NCBI GenBank assembly: GCA_015709715.1
Contig: CP054184.1
Coordinates: forward strand, 3,581,001-3,645,000
DNA from: Nitrospira sp.
GTDB taxonomy: Bacteria; Nitrospirota; Nitrospiria; Nitrospirales; Nitrospiraceae
DNA: 64,000 bases
Direction of reading: 5' to 3'
The notes below the pieces were generated by a model. It had not been told where the DNA came from. It saw only the letters and a program-made list of their open reading frames with translations, and searched no databases. This document shows positions 2-10,030 of this stretch, piece by piece (positions within the stretch are counted from its first letter, which is position 1; each line of letters opens with the position of its first letter). A program made the position numbers and the translations under genes.

Positions 2-373
2 ATGTTGGCGTTGAAGACTGTGCTGGCGGAGACTGATCAAGTACCGATTCTGATTTTCGACGAGGTCGATGCCGGCGTGGGCGGAGCCGTTGCGGAGGTG
101 ATGGGGGCTCGTCTTCGCGAGCTCAGTCAACACCATCAGGTGTTGTGCGTGACCCACTTGCCACAGGTGGCATCTCAGGCCCATGTGCATTTCCTGGTGC
201 GGAAACAGGTTCGCCAGAATCGGACCGTGACGGAGGCGCGCTTGTTGACGCCCCTCGAACGAGAGGAAGAGGTGGCGCGCATGCTGGCAGGTGTGACGGT
301 GACGAAAAACGCGCGTGCGGCGGCCGCCGAGATGATCGGCAATGTGAAGGGCCAGCGGTCTCGGTCGAGTTAG
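2..373 (+). CDS. recN: DNA repair protein RecN, C-terminal fragment (5' end outside window)
   Basis: Last ~123 residues of RecN, the SMC-like ATPase that acts in double-strand break repair. The visible part holds the Walker B/D-loop region (ILIFDEVDAGVGG) and the following switch histidine segment (VLCVTHLPQVASQA), both typical of the RecN C-terminal ATPase lobe. The Walker A half and coiled coil lie upstream of the window. The gene ends at 373 and overlaps by four bases the stop of the convergent response-regulator gene. Family assignment is firm; nothing can be said about the promoter. Confidence 0.93.
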   Translation: MLALKTVLAETDQVPILIFDEVDAGVGGAVAEVMGARLRELSQHHQVLCVTHLPQVASQAHVHFLVRKQVRQNRTVTEARLLTPLEREEEVARMLAGVTVTKNARAAAAEMIGNVKGQRSRSS

Positions 374-1518
374 GAGGCGGGAGAGCCGGCAGGGGCGGTG
401 GCGATCGCCAGCGCGGGCAGTGAAGATTTGCATTCTCGCACGACCCGGGCAAAGATCTCCGTGAGTCTCGGATCGAACTGAGTGCCGGCCCGTTGAGTAA
501 TGCGCAGGATTGCCTCTTCGATAGCACACGGCTGATGGCCGGGGAGGTCCACCGTCAGGTTGTCGAAGGCTTGGGCGATCGCGACGATCCGTGCGAGCAG
601 CGGAATGTTCTCACCGTGCAATCCCTGCGGGCTCTGTGCTCCGTCAAAGCGTTCGTGGTGATAGGCGACGATGTCGCCTACCTCGGCCGGGAATCCAAGC
701 GGGCGGAGCATCTTGGCACCGATCTCACCATGCTTTCCGGCCGGTGTCTGATCTGTTACGGCCTCATCCTCCTGGGCCGAATATTTGTAATCAGGGACAC
801 GTAGTTTTCCAACGTCATGCAGAAAAGCGCCCAGCGCGAGGGCCTTCTGTTCGGCGTGGGAGAGATTCAATTGGTTGGCCAGGAGCGAGGCATAAAAACT
901 GACGCGGCTACTATGGTTCAACAGTTGACGATCTTTGGCTTCCAGGAGATCCGACAGCAAAGGAATCAGCACGGCGACGTCGTCGCCGGACGAGGCGGCA
1001 TCCGGAACCGCTTTCCCTGCGAAGTAATTGGCGCGTAGGTCTTTCCACGCCTGAACCGTTTCAGCCTCTGTGCCCCACAAGGCCGTGGATAGCTTTAAAA
1101 ATGATCGAAGGTAATCCAGCCGATGTTTCTTCTCCAGCGTCTGATTGATCAACGTGATGAGCTCGGTCACGTTGAATGGTTTCAACAGGTATCCTGCCGC
1201 CCCATGGCGAATGCCTTCCATCGCCGAGGTCAGGCTGCCGTAGCCGGTGATGATAATGACTTCAATGTCGGCGTAGTCCTGCTTGATATCCTGAAGTAAA
1301 TCGAGCCCCTGCCGGTCCGGCAGTTTTTGGTCCAATGTGATGAGGTCGATGTGCTGTTCTTTCAGCACGTGAAGCGCGGATCTGGCATTGTCTGCGGTAT
1401 AAATTGTGAAAAACGGACGGAGGATGACCTTGAGCGCATCGCGCGGCCCCGTTTCGTCGTCGACGACCAGAACGGAAGGCTTTTCGCCTCGGGGATCCTG
1501 TGATGCCTGAGTTCTCAC
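370..1518 (-). CDS. Response regulator with HD hydrolase output domain (degenerate HD-GYP)
   Basis: An N-terminal receiver (about residues 14-130 from the chosen start) carries the acidic DDE pocket, a phospho-acceptor Asp near residue 63 (LITLDQKLPD) and the conserved lysine (LLKPF). The C-terminal half is an HD domain with GAFLHDVGKL and a downstream HHERFDG. RpfG-type cyclic-di-GMP phosphodiesterases continue as HHE-x-x-DG-x-GYP; here the GYP triplet is replaced by a serine/proline/glutamine stretch, so c-di-GMP hydrolysis is uncertain. A longer TTG start at 1551 exists, but GTG at 1518 has an AGGAG 6-7 bases upstream and is preferred. It lies downstream of the sigma-54 activator on the same strand (about 210 bases), so it may share its signal. 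Confidence 0.85.
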   Translation of the reverse strand: MRTQASQDPRGEKPSVLVVDDETGPRDALKVILRPFFTIYTADNARSALHVLKEQHIDLITLDQKLPDRQGLDLLQDIKQDYADIEVIIITGYGSLTSAMEGIRHGAAGYLLKPFNVTELITLINQTLEKKHRLDYLRSFLKLSTALWGTEAETVQAWKDLRANYFAGKAVPDAASSGDDVAVLIPLLSDLLEAKDRQLLNHSSRVSFYASLLANQLNLSHAEQKALALGAFLHDVGKLRVPDYKYSAQEDEAVTDQTPAGKHGEIGAKMLRPLGFPAEVGDIVAYHHERFDGAQSPQGLHGENIPLLARIVAIAQAFDNLTVDLPGHQPCAIEEAILRITQRAGTQFDPRLTEIFARVVRECKSSLPALAIATAPAGSPAS

Positions 1519-1728
1519 TCGGTCGCTCCTGGATGCACGGCCGGCTTCCAAGAAGGAAAGCGGTAAAACTCGTACCGCTCAGGTACTTTCCCTAAACAAG
1601 GCATATATAGCAGGTCCTGTTTTCTCACGCTACCAGATATTTGCGACAAGCCTGTGCTCTTCGCATGAGTATCAGGTGATGGATGCGCACATGCGTCAGG
1701 CTGTCTGATTGTTGTACGCCGCACGGTG

Positions 1729-3141
1729 TCATTCCTGCGTCGCCGCAGTGTCCGTAACCGGCCCGTTGTCTGGCCGGCTGATTCCCAACGTATCCATGCG
1801 GTACTTCAACATGCGACGACTGATGCCCAGCATGGCCGCCGCATGGGTCTGTACGTAGTTCGTACGCTTCAAGGCGTCCAGAATGATGTCCCGTTCGAAC
1901 TCCATCACCGCCTTTTCCAGGGAAAGGCGTCCAGCCAGTGTGTCGTCCCGTAGGGAGGTGGATCTGATGTCGGTACGTAGGATGTTGGGAAGGTGTTCGG
2001 GGGTGATGGTCTGCGACCCCTTCGACCAGATGAACGCCTGTTCGATGATATTTTCCATTTCGCGGACGTTTCCAGGCCATGGATAACGTGACAGCAGTTC
2101 CAACGCGTCCTTGGTGAATTCCTGCGGGGCGCGGTGTTCTTCCTCGATGCGCTTCGCCAAAAAATGTTTTGCCAGCAGGGGAATGTCCTCGCCGCGCTCG
2201 CGCAGCGGCGGTAGGTAAAGGGCGATGACATTGATGCGGTAGTAGAGGTCCTCGCGGAACTGCCCTTTGCGGACCATCTCGTCCAGGTTTTTGTTAGTGG
2301 CCGCGACAATACGGACGTCGACCTTGATGGACTGTACGCCGCCGATTCGGGTGAATTCGCGCTCCTGTAAGACGCGGAGGAGCTTGGCCTGCGTGGTGGG
2401 ACTCAGGTCCCCGATTTCGTCCAAGAACAGCGTGCCTGTATGGGCCAGTTCGAACTGGCCTACACGTCTTGCGGTGGCATCGGTGAACGAGCCCTTTTCA
2501 TGCCCGAACAGTTCGCTCTCGATCAAGGTTTCGGGCAGGGCGGCGCAGTTGAGAGCGACGAAGGGGCGTTCCTTCCTGCCACTGTTATAGTGGATGGCCT
2601 TGGCGACGAGTTCCTTTCCGGTTCCGCTTTCGCCGGTCACCAGCACCGTCGTCCGGCTATCGGCCACCTGTTCGATTTTGGCATAAATTTCCTGCATGGC
2701 CGGACTCTTGCCGATCAGGTTGTGAAAGGCATAGCGTTGCGCAACCTGCGCGCGCAGCTGCCGAACCTCTCGCTCCAGTTCACGGCTGTTCATCGCGCGA
2801 TCAACGACGATCCGTAGTTCTTCGACGTCAAAGGGCTTGGACAGGTAGTCCGCAGCTCCCAGTTTCATGGCATCGACCGCGGTCTTGACCGATTTGGTGC
2901 CGGTCAACATGATCACGGGAACCGAGTGATCTTCGGCTCGCATCGACTGGAGCGCCGCCAGCCCGTCCGTGCCAGGCAAGACGACATCGAGCAGTACCAA
3001 ATTGGGAGTGTCTTTTTTGAAGACCTGAAGGCCTTCCGCCGCATCCGCGGCCTCAAGAATGTCATAGGTCGGTTCCAGCACGGTCTTCAATGAAGCGCGA
3101 ACGCGCGGCTCGTCATCCACAAGCAGTACTCGTTTTTTCAT
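1729..3141 (-). CDS. Sigma-54-dependent NtrC-family response regulator
   Basis: 470 residues in the canonical order receiver (1-120, phospho-Asp 52 in LLDVVLPG), AAA+ sigma-54 activation domain (about 140-380, Walker A GESGTGKE, Walker B FLDEIG) and Fis-type helix-turn-helix at the C terminus (AAAMLGISRRMLKYRMDTLGIS). It should use ATP to open sigma-54 holoenzyme at target promoters when phosphorylated. The sigma-54 contact loop reads GSFTDA rather than GAFTGA, a variant worth noting. One base separates it from the upstream histidine kinase gene, so kinase and regulator are a cognate pair in one operon. Targets are unknown. Confidence 0.93.
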   Translation of the reverse strand: MKKRVLLVDDEPRVRASLKTVLEPTYDILEAADAAEGLQVFKKDTPNLVLLDVVLPGTDGLAALQSMRAEDHSVPVIMLTGTKSVKTAVDAMKLGAADYLSKPFDVEELRIVVDRAMNSRELEREVRQLRAQVAQRYAFHNLIGKSPAMQEIYAKIEQVADSRTTVLVTGESGTGKELVAKAIHYNSGRKERPFVALNCAALPETLIESELFGHEKGSFTDATARRVGQFELAHTGTLFLDEIGDLSPTTQAKLLRVLQEREFTRIGGVQSIKVDVRIVAATNKNLDEMVRKGQFREDLYYRINVIALYLPPLRERGEDIPLLAKHFLAKRIEEEHRAPQEFTKDALELLSRYPWPGNVREMENIIEQAFIWSKGSQTITPEHLPNILRTDIRSTSLRDDTLAGRLSLEKAVMEFERDIILDALKRTNYVQTHAAAMLGISRRMLKYRMDTLGISRPDNGPVTDTAATQE

Positions 3142-4528: not shown

Positions 4529-7500
4529 TCAGCCAGCGGAATCGGGTTTTTCAGCGACTACGAGGAGCACCTGTCCACCCAGAGCGCGGGTGAACCGTAA
4601 GGGACAAGGTGTGAGCGGGGAGAGGCGCGCAGTGAGGAGGGTCTCATCGAAGGTATGGAGTTGCCCGACACGAAGGGCGTGACACCATTGCGCCATCAGA
4701 TCAAGGGTACGGCGAGCGTCTCCTGTAAACTCATCGATTCCCCGTTCGTGGAAATATGGGCGACAGAACACGGCGAGATCGGCGGTGTCGGTCAGCACAC
4801 CGGCGACGAGTTTTCCGCCCGGCTTGAGTAGTCGAACGAATTCTCGGAGGGCGTGCAGGGGAGAGGGAGCGAAGCTCAACGAAAGATTGGCGACGATACG
4901 GTCGAAGGATCTGTCGGCAAAGGGGAGGACCTCGATCGACGGAGCAAGCACCCAGCTGTCTGCGATGAGAGTTGGAACAGGGCGGGATCCGGCAAGCAGG
5001 TCACCTGCAGCGCCGAGTGTGCCGAGCGCGGCGGCTCTCGCCGATTGCAGCGCGGAAACCGAGAAATCCAGGCCGACGTATCGAATGGACTGTGGCTGCA
5101 ATTGAGGTCGTGCGCGCAAGCGATACAGGCAGTTGAGAAATAGCAGTGTGACGAACGAATGCATGCCGCATCCGATATCAAGCAGCGCGACGCCCTCCTC
5201 AAACGGTTGGGAACACTGATACAGGTCATCAAGATAGCGCCAGTAGACCGGCAAGTCGTCCAATCTCGTCGTGAGTTCAGTACGGGCGGTGTAGAGACGG
5301 TTTCGAACAACGGCGTCGGGCCCATACCGGGTGCAGAGGAGATCGCGTTCGAAGCGTAGGCGAATGCCGGTGCTACGCGAGAGACTGGCCATGGGAATTG
5401 AGAGCGACGTGCCTGGATGGCCCAAGCGGCAGAGCTGGGCGAGTCGTTGCCACTCCCTCACGGACTCGTCGGATGGAGCCCCCGAGGCAAGCAGAACCGT
5501 GGACGGCACCGAGATGCAGCTGCATCGGGGCCCAAGCAGGGTGAGGAGTTCGTTGAGCAACTCCGGCGGCGGGCTTGGAATGGAGCGTTCCGTGTGAACC
5601 GCGGCGTCGGTCATGAAGATAATGTCGGTCTCGGCGCGGCTTCCATGCTCTCGAAAGACGGTGGCATCGCCGTAGTGTCCGGCAAGGGCATCAGCTAAAA
5701 ACTGATCGATGGCGAGTGGAAGCCCTAACAGATTCCCGGAGCCGAACCGTACTCCCGACTGATACTCCTGGAGAATGTTTCGCTGATGGAGTGCGGTCAA
5801 GCAGTGCTCCAGGTCAAGGGTCGGGTTAAGCAGCAGAAACCGATTTGCACGCCTCTGCCAGTCCCGTCGGCGTACTGCGATTCCTGCTGATAAATCGGAC
5901 GCGAGTAGGGTGAGTGGAGCGTCGGGCCACTTGTCATGGGCGAACGCCAGAACAGCATCGAGATCATCTTCCAAGGAGGCGTATGTCGTGTGTGCGGGAT
6001 CGCCGTCACTGAGACCGATGTGTCGGCTATGGTCGTAACGCAGGACTTGAATCCCCTGACTAGCTAGGTAATAGGCGAAGCGGACATACGCCTGCTGCGT
6101 GTGGCCATATCCTGGGCTCAGCACCACCATCGGAAGCGCGGCGGTATAGGCCTGTTTAGGCCGATCATGGTTCAACACCAGTGTGTGTCCGACTCGATTG
6201 CGCACCAGATGGGTCGTCGTGACGACCGGTGGGTCTGCCGCAGGCTCAGCCAGATCAGGAGAGGTCGCCAGCCGCGGTGCCATGATGTGGTGAAGGTGCC
6301 GCTCCTGAGTGGAGGAGAGCCGTTCGAATCGCACTCCGAGGTGGATGCGTTGGGCCTGTCTCTGTTCGCGGGAGGCTGCAACCACTCCATGGGCGCGCGT
6401 CCAAATGATGCGGCCTGCCCAAGGCTGCTCCAAGGAGTCCGTGGTCGGCGGAGGCGATGCAGTGATGAAGGCGCCGACGGGTATGAAGCGGACCGTGGTG
6501 CGATTCATCCAGGTTTCGGGCCGATCGAACAGTTCGATACAGGCGCCGTCTCGCCCGAGGTTTAACATGAGGCCCCGTGCGCGCCGTTGCCCATGGTCGG
6601 GATGAAACACATCAATAGGAACGGCGGATGTCACCCGAATCGTCTCGCGCCGATCGGAGGAGATCCTCTGCAGGATTGGGTTCGGGGGCAAATGAGATGC
6701 GGAAGTGGTCGTGCGCGGAAGAATCAGCGCTTCGAACGTGACGGCAGGGGCGCCTTCCCGCAAGGCGTCCAGTAGCGAGAGGAGCACGGTCCGATCTCGG
6801 TCGTCGGCGAGGGTGAAGGAAATGACGAGGTCTTTGATAGAGGGGAAGGTGAGGCTGCCTGAGGGCAGAGGGCGTTCCTGAACGACTCCCTCGAGCTCCA
6901 GAAAACTGACGGGAGTTCTAATCACGACATAGGCCGGCTGAAGGTGGACGGAACTCGCCAGATCGCGAAGGGTTAAGAGCGCCCCCCCGGCGCTCATATT
7001 CCGAAGGACACCGCGCAACATCGTGGTGCCGACCGAAAATTGTACGGGAATGGAAAACGACCTTCGCGGAAAGCGTCGGCGGTCCGGTGGCGTGGGGAGC
7101 ACGTCTTGTGATCCGGACTCCTGGGGTGCGGCGTTCGAATCTGAGCGATCATGGGGCGCGGAGGCTGCTTCTCCACCGGCCGGTGAGGGCAACATCGCTT
7201 CCGGGGCTTCGGGGATTCTGACCGTGATGACCAACTCCTGTCCGAGAGCCTGTTCGAATTGGATGGTTCCACCGTGGGCCTGGACGATTCGATGAGCGCG
7301 CAGGAAGTCCTCGGGGGGAAAGCTGCCTTGATGAAGGGGGCGAGCAGGGATGTGCTGCTTTGGTGCGGAACCGGTGATCTGGAAGGAGGCTGCCGTCTGG
7401 ATGGTTTCCCGGCCTTGCCGGTCCCCGCCCAGACCGATCGGGTACCCCGCTAGGGTCGTGGTTTCAGTTTGTAAATGGATCCGGGTGTTCGTGTCAGCCT

Positions 7501-8734
7501 CTCTGAAGGGAGCGTGCGCGTAGGCCAGCAGGACGCGGACGAGATCTTCGAGTGCTTGACGAGACCCCAGGACCATCGGAAGGTGAGGTGTGAACTGACA
7601 GACGAGCGACAGTCCTTCGAGTTGTGGGCTGTCGCGCATGGAGTCGACCACGGACTGCAGGATTCCCGTGAGGTCTAGGACGTCCATTCCGTCCGGTCCT
7701 GCGAGAGCGGCGAGTGCCAGCCGGCGATTTAGCTGGGAGGCGCGGGAAGCCTGCGAGATGATGGTTGTGACCTGCTGTTCAATCTGACGGTGTTGAAGCG
7801 TCTGGAGCAGGCGCTTTGAATCCTCGATTAGCGAGGCAAGAGGTTGATGCAGCTGTCGTGAAACCAGCGCGGCATCCTGAAATCGTGCCAAACGGTGATC
7901 GGCCTCGTGCAGTCGTGATTCCAGTGCGGCCATCCGTTCCAACAGGTCTTTTTGGGGCGAGAGGTCTCGCAGCGCACCGATGGTGCCGACGTACCGTTGT
8001 GTATGGTCGTAGAGCCCCTTTGCGGAGATCTCCACGGAGACGGTTGTGGTCCTGTCCTGTGGTGAGGCCTTGCGCAGCAGCACCAGCTCCTGTCGCTGGG
8101 TCGAGCGTCCACCTGCCCGTCGTTCCCCCACGTGGTAGCGAGAGGTCCCTGCCTGGGCCGGCGAAAGCACGACGGAAAAATGTCGTCCGGCAAGTTCCTC
8201 AGGTTGGTAACCAAGGAGGGTTGCTAGGCCGAGACTCACATAGATAAAACGGCCCTCACGGTCGAGTTCAAACAACAAATCGTTGAGGATCTCGGTGATG
8301 CGGAGGTGCCGCTGAAAGGTGTGGTCTAATTGAGTTTGAAGGGTTCGCTTCTCAAGCGCCTCCTGAACCGAAAAGAGCAGTTCTGTCACGAAGGCCGCCG
8401 ACTGCTTGAAAAGGAGAAAATCCGCGCCCTGCCGGATGGCTTCAAGGGCCGTCTGTGAGTCGTTGTGGTTCGTTTGCAGGAGAATGGCTGCAGCGGGAGC
8501 GGCACGGCGGATGCGGGCCAGCAGATCGAGGTCCTGGCCTTTGACTATGTTGTGGTCGAGGATGATGATCTGCCAGTCGTCTCTTCGACTGAACGTCAGG
8601 CCCTCTTCCGCGGTGTAGGCTGCTTCGATCCGGCAGGCACCGAAGAAGCCCCTCAAGCTGGAGGTGACCAGCTTGATTTCGTCCGGACGGTCATTGATGA
8701 GGAGGATGCTGAGGGCCAAGTCAGGTCGTGGCAT
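4529..8734 (-). CDS. 1401-residue fusion: receiver, PAS, degenerate kinase, two PilZ, LuxD-like hydrolase, methyltransferase
   Basis: One uninterrupted frame. Domains seen, in order: receiver 8-125 (Asp 60 in IIILDHN, Lys 110); PAS 145-262; degenerate histidine-kinase-like region 285-508 (H-box-like LHQPLASL with His 296, but no N box or G1; a G3-like tail remains); PilZ 551-655 (DRRRFPRRSF, later NMSAGG); PilZ 695-818 (DRRETIRV, later NLGRDG); alpha/beta hydrolase 840-1085 resembling LuxD acyl-transferases/thioesterases (VLSPGYGH, LRYDHSRHIGLSDG, nucleophile Ser 949 in ASDLSAGIA, NPTLDL, TDAA); class I SAM methyltransferase 1125-1395 with motif I LLDIGCG at 1184-1190 and KPGG at 1304-1307. 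Inference: cyclic-di-GMP or phosphorylation input controlling an acyl-hydrolase/methyltransferase output, perhaps acting on lipids or acyl carriers. It lies 54 bases upstream of the kinase/NtrC pair on the same strand. Confidence 0.82.
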   Translation of the reverse strand: MPRPDLALSILLINDRPDEIKLVTSSLRGFFGACRIEAAYTAEEGLTFSRRDDWQIIILDHNIVKGQDLDLLARIRRAAPAAAILLQTNHNDSQTALEAIRQGADFLLFKQSAAFVTELLFSVQEALEKRTLQTQLDHTFQRHLRITEILNDLLFELDREGRFIYVSLGLATLLGYQPEELAGRHFSVVLSPAQAGTSRYHVGERRAGGRSTQRQELVLLRKASPQDRTTTVSVEISAKGLYDHTQRYVGTIGALRDLSPQKDLLERMAALESRLHEADHRLARFQDAALVSRQLHQPLASLIEDSKRLLQTLQHRQIEQQVTTIISQASRASQLNRRLALAALAGPDGMDVLDLTGILQSVVDSMRDSPQLEGLSLVCQFTPHLPMVLGSRQALEDLVRVLLAYAHAPFREADTNTRIHLQTETTTLAGYPIGLGGDRQGRETIQTAASFQITGSAPKQHIPARPLHQGSFPPEDFLRAHRIVQAHGGTIQFEQALGQELVITVRIPEAPEAMLPSPAGGEAASAPHDRSDSNAAPQESGSQDVLPTPPDRRRFPRRSFSIPVQFSVGTTMLRGVLRNMSAGGALLTLRDLASSVHLQPAYVVIRTPVSFLELEGVVQERPLPSGSLTFPSIKDLVISFTLADDRDRTVLLSLLDALREGAPAVTFEALILPRTTTSASHLPPNPILQRISSDRRETIRVTSAVPIDVFHPDHGQRRARGLMLNLGRDGACIELFDRPETWMNRTTVRFIPVGAFITASPPPTTDSLEQPWAGRIIWTRAHGVVAASREQRQAQRIHLGVRFERLSSTQERHLHHIMAPRLATSPDLAEPAADPPVVTTTHLVRNRVGHTLVLNHDRPKQAYTAALPMVVLSPGYGHTQQAYVRFAYYLASQGIQVLRYDHSRHIGLSDGDPAHTTYASLEDDLDAVLAFAHDKWPDAPLTLLASDLSAGIAVRRRDWQRRANRFLLLNPTLDLEHCLTALHQRNILQEYQSGVRFGSGNLLGLPLAIDQFLADALAGHYGDATVFREHGSRAETDIIFMTDAAVHTERSIPSPPPELLNELLTLLGPRCSCISVPSTVLLASGAPSDESVREWQRLAQLCRLGHPGTSLSIPMASLSRSTGIRLRFERDLLCTRYGPDAVVRNRLYTARTELTTRLDDLPVYWRYLDDLYQCSQPFEEGVALLDIGCGMHSFVTLLFLNCLYRLRARPQLQPQSIRYVGLDFSVSALQSARAAALGTLGAAGDLLAGSRPVPTLIADSWVLAPSIEVLPFADRSFDRIVANLSLSFAPSPLHALREFVRLLKPGGKLVAGVLTDTADLAVFCRPYFHERGIDEFTGDARRTLDLMAQWCHALRVGQLHTFDETLLTARLSPLTPCPLRFTRALGGQVLLVVAEKPDSAG

Positions 8735-9028: not shown

Positions 9029-10030
9029 CTAGCGGGCCGCGACGTTGTTTTGAGGTTGTCCGCAGGTTCCCGGAGTCATATAGAGCAGGTAGTTCCCCAT
9101 TCCATGCTGGATGTTCGGATTCTGAAGGAGATGATGGTGCACCATCACCATTTCATAGTCATCCGATTTGGTGACCGTGAAACCTTTCGAATTTTTGTAC
9201 ACCTGATGGGGCTGGAAGTCTCGGAACGTGCCGTCGGCTTCCACGTCGGGAACGGTTCGCAAGAGGGTTTCGTTAGTGGTCTTATTTTCGAGCGAAATCA
9301 TGAGCAATTCATCGTGACCGTGGGGGTAGGCAAACTTGACGCACCCGTCGATGTTGAATTTGAGCGGGGCTGACAGAACTGATACACCGGGCCTGATCTC
9401 GATTCCCTCATCGGTTTGATCCGGCCCCCGTTCTCCAAATTTGGAATAACAGACGATGTTCACGCCGACTTGATAAACCTCCATTTCCTGCACCTTGGCG
9501 CCTTTCGGCGCAACATACATGGTGAACCGAGCCATGACATCCTTAGTGGGCGGTGCCTTATGGTAGAAGGCTACGATGGACATGAGGTTCTGCCCCTTTG
9601 CCAGCTTGACTCCGTACCCTTCGGGAAACCGGGCCTCGGTCATCTCCAATCCCGCACCGGCGAAAAACAGCGGCTCGCCATCACAGGAGACACTGGGTTT
9701 ATCGTTGTTCAGCATGAGAATGTGGTGCAGATAATTCTTGGGAAGCGGCCGGCCGTCTTTGGTGAAGACCTCCGACTTATACCCGATCATGTAGGTGTCT
9801 TCCGGCAATTGAAACACCTTCTTGGGCATGCTGGAAGCCAACTCGCCGTCGTGGCCGGTGGGGAGGTCGATCGGACCGAAGGTGAGTGCGATGGTATTGT
9901 CGTCGATGGTGATTTTCGTCTCGCCCAGCGTCGGCATGGTCGGAATCGCATGGTGGTCATGCCCCCCATCGGCAGACACCGAAGCCGCTAGCCCCAACAG
10001 CATCACCATCGACAGCAGTACCCGATTCAT
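9029..10030 (-). CDS. Exported protein resembling copper type II monooxygenase (PHM-like) fold
   Basis: 333 residues with a clear signal peptide (residues 1-20, cleavage near SVSA-DG) followed by a His-rich segment GGHDHH. Spaced histidine motifs (LHHILMLNN near residue 105, AFYHKAP, FAYPHGHDELL, and MVHHHLLQNP near the C terminus) and several cysteines recall the copper-binding fold of peptidylglycine-monooxygenase-like or Nod19-like proteins. I infer a periplasmic metal-binding protein and cannot assign a substrate. The gene stands alone on the minus strand. Confidence 0.5.
   Translation of the reverse strand: MNRVLLSMVMLLGLAASVSADGGHDHHAIPTMPTLGETKITIDDNTIALTFGPIDLPTGHDGELASSMPKKVFQLPEDTYMIGYKSEVFTKDGRPLPKNYLHHILMLNNDKPSVSCDGEPLFFAGAGLEMTEARFPEGYGVKLAKGQNLMSIVAFYHKAPPTKDVMARFTMYVAPKGAKVQEMEVYQVGVNIVCYSKFGERGPDQTDEGIEIRPGVSVLSAPLKFNIDGCVKFAYPHGHDELLMISLENKTTNETLLRTVPDVEADGTFRDFQPHQVYKNSKGFTVTKSDDYEMVMVHHHLLQNPNIQHGMGNYLLYMTPGTCGQPQNNVAAR

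Follow-up and report, generated by a model that had tools for sequence, protein, structure and literature searches.

Several described systems come close to parts of the locus reported here. LuxD is a myristoyl-acyl carrier protein (ACP) thioesterase (family PF02273, structure 1THT). The PrsK/PrsR pair of PEP-CTERM systems was proposed to control PEP-CTERM genes together with σ54, and at its naming the stimulus of PrsK was termed obscure and its specificity domain entirely novel (available part of PMC1569441). Fatty acid methyl ester signalling is carried by PhcB-PhcS-PhcR/Q of the phcBSRQ operon, and in Nas343 and Nas354 PilZ is joined to an N-acyl amino acid synthase that uses acyl-ACP and was proposed to be regulated by cyclic di-GMP (c-di-GMP) (available parts of PMC8578825 and PMC4897644). 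Here we analyzed a 64,000-nt stretch of Nitrospira sp. (CP054184.1, 3,581,001-3,645,000), called the window, to which all feature coordinates refer, and in it the gene of a 1401-aa protein, P0001, that joins signalling domains to a LuxD-like α/β-hydrolase domain and a methyltransferase. Loci are coded with L and genomes of relatives with G; L031 is the locus of a paralogue in the same genome.

The frame was originally predicted to be a single one of 1401 codons, and it is indeed open throughout, running from 8734 to 4529 on the minus strand. The long protein is carried by 29/29 same-genus genomes, in 27 of them in one piece and in the other 2 divided between two contigs; two further genera (G029 and G033) have it at nearly full length. 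The frame is therefore real, and a chance fusion or an assembly artefact of several genes, of which the original prediction had warned, is ruled out. GC content is even along the frame, and a search of it for repeats of at least 30 bases found none. All organism-named database homologues are from Nitrospira or Nitrospiraceae. The receiver (REC), PAS, two PilZ, LuxD-like hydrolase and methyltransferase domains were each matched by Pfam above the gathering cut-offs. The degenerate kinase that had been proposed between PAS and PilZ stands in part: a kinase-like stretch with Arg in place of the phospho-His is there, and neither HisKA nor HATPase_c gave a Pfam match in it. Among the matches listed in searches of open-licence PubMed Central (PMC) papers, no description of this architecture was recognised.

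The hydrolase domain is related to LuxD both by profile and by fold. Pfam places Hydrolase_4 at residues 869-976 and Acyl_transf_2/LuxD (PF02273) at 842-954, in the segment 840-1085 for which this relation had been predicted, with 32.4 bits against a cut-off of 20.3. LuxD (1THT) was also the best PDB fold match for both structure models, in a comparison whose VIA-align rows span mainly the hydrolase and barely test the rest of the models. The cut-off of 420 bits of the LuxD equivalog NF052253 was reached neither by the window protein (34.5 bits) nor by the paralogue (77.1 bits), which scores 81.4 bits with PF02273. When the register of the catalytic triad was taken from 1THT, the nucleophile position was found to be Asp in 30/30 genome orthologues and, among 70 database homologues, Asp in 66, Asn in 3, Thr in 1 and Ser in 0. 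The catalytic His is retained in 2/70 homologues and none is aligned in the window copy, while the acid position is variable, with an alignment-dependent count of 26/70 for Asp. The window copy lacks a Ser-Asp-His triad. The ratio of nonsynonymous to synonymous substitution in 7 chosen close pairs is alike in the hydrolase part (0.17-0.27) and in the methyltransferase (0.13-0.26), and the hydrolase domain is under continued purifying selection. From its residues the domain is predicted to be a pseudo-hydrolase. Because of this, direct second-messenger control of acyl-thioester or lipid chemistry by the window protein, as suggested in the original prediction, is unsupported; since the catalytic residues are lost, the protein is likely a regulatory switch.

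The triad is intact in the own-genome paralogue, a PilZ-PilZ-hydrolase-methyltransferase protein (L031:7973-10963). In the paralogue family Ser, Asp and His occupy the triad positions in 117, 120 and 119, respectively, of the best 120 of 335 proteins. The wider family is held by 40 of 61 relative genomes. More than one match, the long form together with the shorter PilZ-PilZ-hydrolase-methyltransferase, was obtained in 26/29 genomes of the genus Nitrospira; the shorter form is fragmentary in G009 and G028, and G002, G017 and G020 have the long form only. Single copies have Asp at the Ser position in G029, G030, G031 and G033 and are intact in G032, G044, G050 and G057. A contig scan with two peptide patterns only, by which distant kin may be missed, gave 53 loci, 51 of them with Nitrospirota-type names, and L070 is labelled Nitrospinota. 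L100 matches only weakly, with 28% over a stretch of about 135 residues, and was taken as spurious. The fusion can also be found in other states. L065 and L069 have the gene order of the window, but there a fused REC-PAS-PilZ-hydrolase-methyltransferase keeps the triad and is accompanied by a 7TM kinase, i.e. one with a seven-transmembrane (7TM) sensor half; at L034 a separate gene directly upstream of the enzyme gene encodes the REC-PAS-PilZ part (450 aa). L079:5415-9722 encodes a 1435-aa homologue whose triad positions are G, G and Y; at this window-type locus there is no kinase gene and the regulator lies directly next.

The state of the triad goes together with the type of the downstream kinase. 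In the same genome, the paralogue gene is followed after 25 bases by the gene of a 1006-aa 7TM-GAF-HisKA kinase. The pairing was scored at 90 loci (99 rows less 8 duplicates and 1 fragment), 78 of which have a readable downstream kinase; a kinase was called 7TM by a tblastn match to the sensor half of the paralogue's kinase, and crude hydropathy served as a further check, giving 3 to 13 segments in the 7TM-called kinases and 0 in the 32 others. All of the intact-triad copies at these loci (45/45) precede a 7TM kinase, and all of the Asp copies, the window included (32/32), precede a kinase without 7TM. No kinase is in view at the other 12 loci, which hold 7 intact copies, 1 Asp copy and 4 others. 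At the Asp locus (L125) a kinase gene is present with no 7TM match; the four others are L079, L098 (N, D, N; no kinase before the presumed recN) and two Asn copies at contig ends. When the 61 genomes were searched with the sensor half, G029, G031 and G033 gave no match, and the one in G030 was partial and weak.

Our preferred reading, for which we would give a probability of about 0.45, is that a PilZ-LuxD-type-hydrolase-methyltransferase copy, fused to further domains in the window protein, has lost catalysis and become a regulatory pseudo-enzyme, and that the paralogue is a c-di-GMP-gated signal synthase read by its 7TM kinase. The state of the window protein would be set by c-di-GMP (PilZ), by phosphorylation (receiver D60), by PAS input and possibly by a bound acyl ligand, and would tune the soluble kinase and the σ54 activator encoded directly downstream. 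In the paralogue, which c-di-GMP would gate, a fatty acid may be cleaved off acyl-ACP by the LuxD-type triad and then capped by the methyltransferase, e.g. as a methyl ester, and the adjoining 7TM-GAF, PrsK-like kinase may sense the product; a methylated fatty acid is suggested because a thioesterase is followed by a methyltransferase in one chain. No NtrC-type regulator is labelled in the 18-kb paralogue locus, and for this reason the window regulator is probably the target of the paralogue's kinase. Over 417 columns the window kinase shares 41% identity with the soluble half of that 7TM kinase, and the two are very similar around the phospho-His. Substrates, product and ligand are putative here, as are phosphotransfer from both kinases to the one window regulator and the genes that it would target. 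A wider form of this scheme is possible, though on balance doubtful: Nitrospirota would possess a self-contained lipid signalling pathway, from a c-di-GMP-gated thioesterase-methyltransferase through a fatty acid methyl ester and a 7TM-GAF PrsK-like kinase to a σ54 PrsR-like activator, in which the second Nitrospira copy would serve as a non-catalytic, cytosolic, receiver-coupled sensor.

Each of the described systems shares part of this arrangement. With LuxD the window copy has in common the fold and the register of the nucleophile elbow, but it is without Ser and His and fused to PilZ and methyltransferase, and its gene adjoins kinase and regulator genes, not lux genes. With the PrsK profile (TIGR02916) the paralogue's kinase (145.7 bits) and the window kinase (113.5 bits; third, 109.3 bits), and with the PrsR profile (TIGR02915) the window regulator (444.7 bits; next, 433.2 bits), are the top scorers of the genome, which also has exosortase XrtD and PrsT, the latter above its cut-off (329.9 versus 312.2 bits). 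The kinase and regulator scores differ from those of PrsK/PrsR proper in being below the curated cut-offs, and an acyl enzyme encoded beside the kinase is undescribed for PrsK in the available part of PMC1569441. As in the phc operon, where methyltransferase, sensor kinase and response regulator adjoin, the putative synthase lies beside the sensor, in 45/45 intact readable loci (at 7 more intact loci no kinase is visible); unlike PhcB, the methyltransferase is here fused to a thioesterase-type domain and PilZ (PMC8578825, available part). Nas343 and Nas354 likewise fuse an acyl-ACP-using enzyme to PilZ, but their acyl enzyme is of the unrelated FeeM type, and no kinase neighbour is mentioned in the available part of PMC4897644.

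A number of observations weigh against the preferred reading. An intact enzyme implies a 7TM kinase but the converse fails, because 7TM matches occur beyond the enzyme: G060 has a match (E 1e-64) in a 720-aa frame with no family member found, which refutes the 7TM kinase as the enzyme's exclusive partner, and matches outnumber intact copies in G044, G050 and G057 (second matches) and in G053 (three). The single Asn copy with a readable kinase (L042) retains a 7TM kinase. Most of the 90 loci are from close Nitrospira relatives, and in the trees all broken-triad rows fit one side of one branch; placing L035 or L079 with the long clade was not rejected by approximately unbiased (AU) tests (p 0.34 and 0.39). 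A single change is enough to account for the trees, so loci cannot be counted as separate events, and because the trees do not show more than one event, independent co-loss of triad and 7TM is not claimed and the pairing is an association only. As to the paralogues, a strict PilZ motif pattern is not matched within the first 330 residues of 29/107 of those of at least 740 aa, and the nearest folds of the methyltransferase are Coq5 and NodS, which are not known to act on fatty acids. The likeness to PrsK/PrsR is also limited: none of the kinases reaches the PrsK cut-off of 300 bits, the paralogue's kinase aligns to the profile only from position 199, the window regulator does not reach the PrsR cut-off of 502.6 bits, and the window kinase and regulator are only slightly ahead of the genome's other paralogues. 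Exosortase is absent from 9/40 family-holding genomes, and strict σ54 sites (5 in the genome, 3 in a reversed control) show no clear excess.

At the Asn exception, the genes of the pseudo-hydrolase and the 7TM kinase are separated by one that encodes a fusion of PilZ with a ketoacyl-ACP synthase III (PilZ 45.7 bits, ACP_syn_III_C 79 bits). This PilZ-FabH-like fusion, again an acyl-ACP enzyme behind PilZ, is seen at L077:4243-5841 and L042:4159-5757; it occurs in 1/61 genomes only and was dropped as a general companion. FabH-like matches in open frames that are longer than usual (452-507 aa) were noted in G030, G032, G037, G043, G046 and G051.

The window protein may instead be a live methyltransferase gated by receiver and PilZ, its pseudo-hydrolase holding or delivering the substrate and its output being small-molecule or lipid methylation, not kinase control. 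The protein has the fold and motif I of class I S-adenosylmethionine (SAM) methyltransferases, and Methyltransf_11 matches residues 1212-1310 with 42.1 bits. Against it, the third glycine of motif I is replaced (LDIGCGMHS versus LDAGCGNGN), and in the G029 copy the motif has decayed to VDAGIGQSD, with GLGR replacing GLDF. Given the altered and, in G029, decayed motif, the family as a whole has not kept methylation, and we consider this explanation unlikely. Lipid remodelling, in which the intact paralogue would trim a phospholipid in the manner of a lysophospholipase and methylate the head group, the 7TM kinase would sense the state of the membrane and the window protein would be a regulatory remnant, agrees with the resemblance of the hydrolase fold to monoglyceride lipases, with the occurrence of 7TM kinases also without the enzyme, and with a weak match of the methyltransferase to phosphatidylethanolamine N-methyltransferase 8ys9 (E 0.0024, 44 residues); we regard it as quite unlikely. 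That the nearly fixed Asp itself acts as the nucleophile, in the way known from haloalkane dehalogenases and epoxide hydrolases, is highly improbable because such enzymes still require the catalytic His, which is lost in all but the two homologues mentioned above.

The remaining features of P0001 and its operon are collected in Table 1.

Table 1. Features of the long protein and its operon (window coordinates; residue numbers are those of P0001)
Feature	Coordinates	Strand	Basis
P0001, 1401-aa REC-PAS-(kinase-like)-PilZ-PilZ-pseudo-hydrolase (predicted)-methyltransferase	4529..8734	-	Open reading frame, Pfam, orthologues
Receiver domain, residues 10-112	8399..8707	-	Pfam Response_reg, 41.1 bits
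PAS domain, residues 155-259	7958..8272	-	Pfam
Kinase-like stretch without phospho-His, about 271-515	7190..7924	-	H-box region VSR[Q/E]L[Q/H]QPL
PilZ 1, about 551-660	6755..7084	-	Pfam; β-barrel strands in structure model
PilZ 2, about 694-820	6275..6655	-	Pfam, second stretch; structure model
LuxD-like α/β-hydrolase domain, 842-1095, predicted pseudo-enzyme	5450..6211	-	Pfam, alignment, fold
Codon of D947 at nucleophile Ser position	5894..5896	-	ASDLSA versus LuxD AASLSA
Class I SAM methyltransferase fold, about 1142-1401, motif LDIGCG	4532..5311	-	Pfam, alignment, fold
Soluble HisKA/HATPase kinase, 443 aa	3143..4474	-	No transmembrane segment by crude hydropathy
NtrC-type σ54 response regulator	1729..3141	-	Highest PrsR (TIGR02915) score of the genome
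Receiver-HD-GYP-type protein	370..1551	-	Gene order conserved

In the receiver, the phospho-acceptor D60 and T88 are present in 28/28 and K110 in 27/28; the acidic pair before the acceptor is Asn-Asp in the window, Asn-Glu in 26/28 orthologues and Ser-Glu in 1. In the kinase-like H-box, Arg replaces His in 27/28 covering orthologues and His is found only in L030 (G033). The PilZ profile matched two stretches of the window protein with 34.6 bits against a cut-off of 22.5, in line with the two domains predicted at residues 551-818. PilZ 1 has RxxxR in 30/30 and [DN]xSxxG in 29/30 orthologues; in PilZ 2, [DN]xSxxG is found in 25/30 and is not matched in the window copy (NLGRDG).

In the window the order of the operon is long protein, kinase, NtrC-type regulator and REC-HD-GYP protein, followed by a gene that we take, by eye, to be recN. 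The REC-HD-GYP protein is related to c-di-GMP phosphodiesterases (NF053512, 191.4 bits, below the cut-off of 400); its GYP motif is altered (HHERFDGAQSP), and the predicted phosphodiesterase activity is uncertain. On the other side, a protein of 333 aa that looks secreted and matches neither Pfam nor NCBIfam (9029-10030) and a SnoaL-like protein (PF13474; 10101-11030) keep their places beside the locus across several genera. The intact paralogue is neighboured by what we take, again by eye, to be a Pup-proteasome-like cluster (L031:12620-17606), an odd companion that is also seen at other Nitrospira loci.

Exosortase was found in 31/40 family-holding genomes and in 3/21 without the family, the genomes being related; as an obligate partner it was dropped, since the single-contig genome G001 has the family and no exosortase. 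In the own genome, L156 (C1:211000-230900) holds exosortase XrtD, PrsT, a chain-length determinant, an export protein and a 235-aa protein with a VPLPA-type tail. No σ54 site at 2 or fewer mismatches was found before this VPLPA-type gene, and a PF07589 search for PEP-CTERM gave no match, but its controls were silent too. The nitrite-oxidising bacteria in question grow as flocs. In another floc-former, a PEP-CTERM gene requires RpoN (available part of PMC9850573).

A PrsK-like 7TM kinase encoded next to an acyl enzyme whose triad is intact, and kinases without 7TM beside the Asp copies, point to a concrete candidate ligand class for this kind of sensor. If the preferred reading is true, c-di-GMP would be placed upstream of the production of a lipid signal, and the window protein would clearly illustrate the change of a signal enzyme into a regulator in nitrite-oxidising bacteria.

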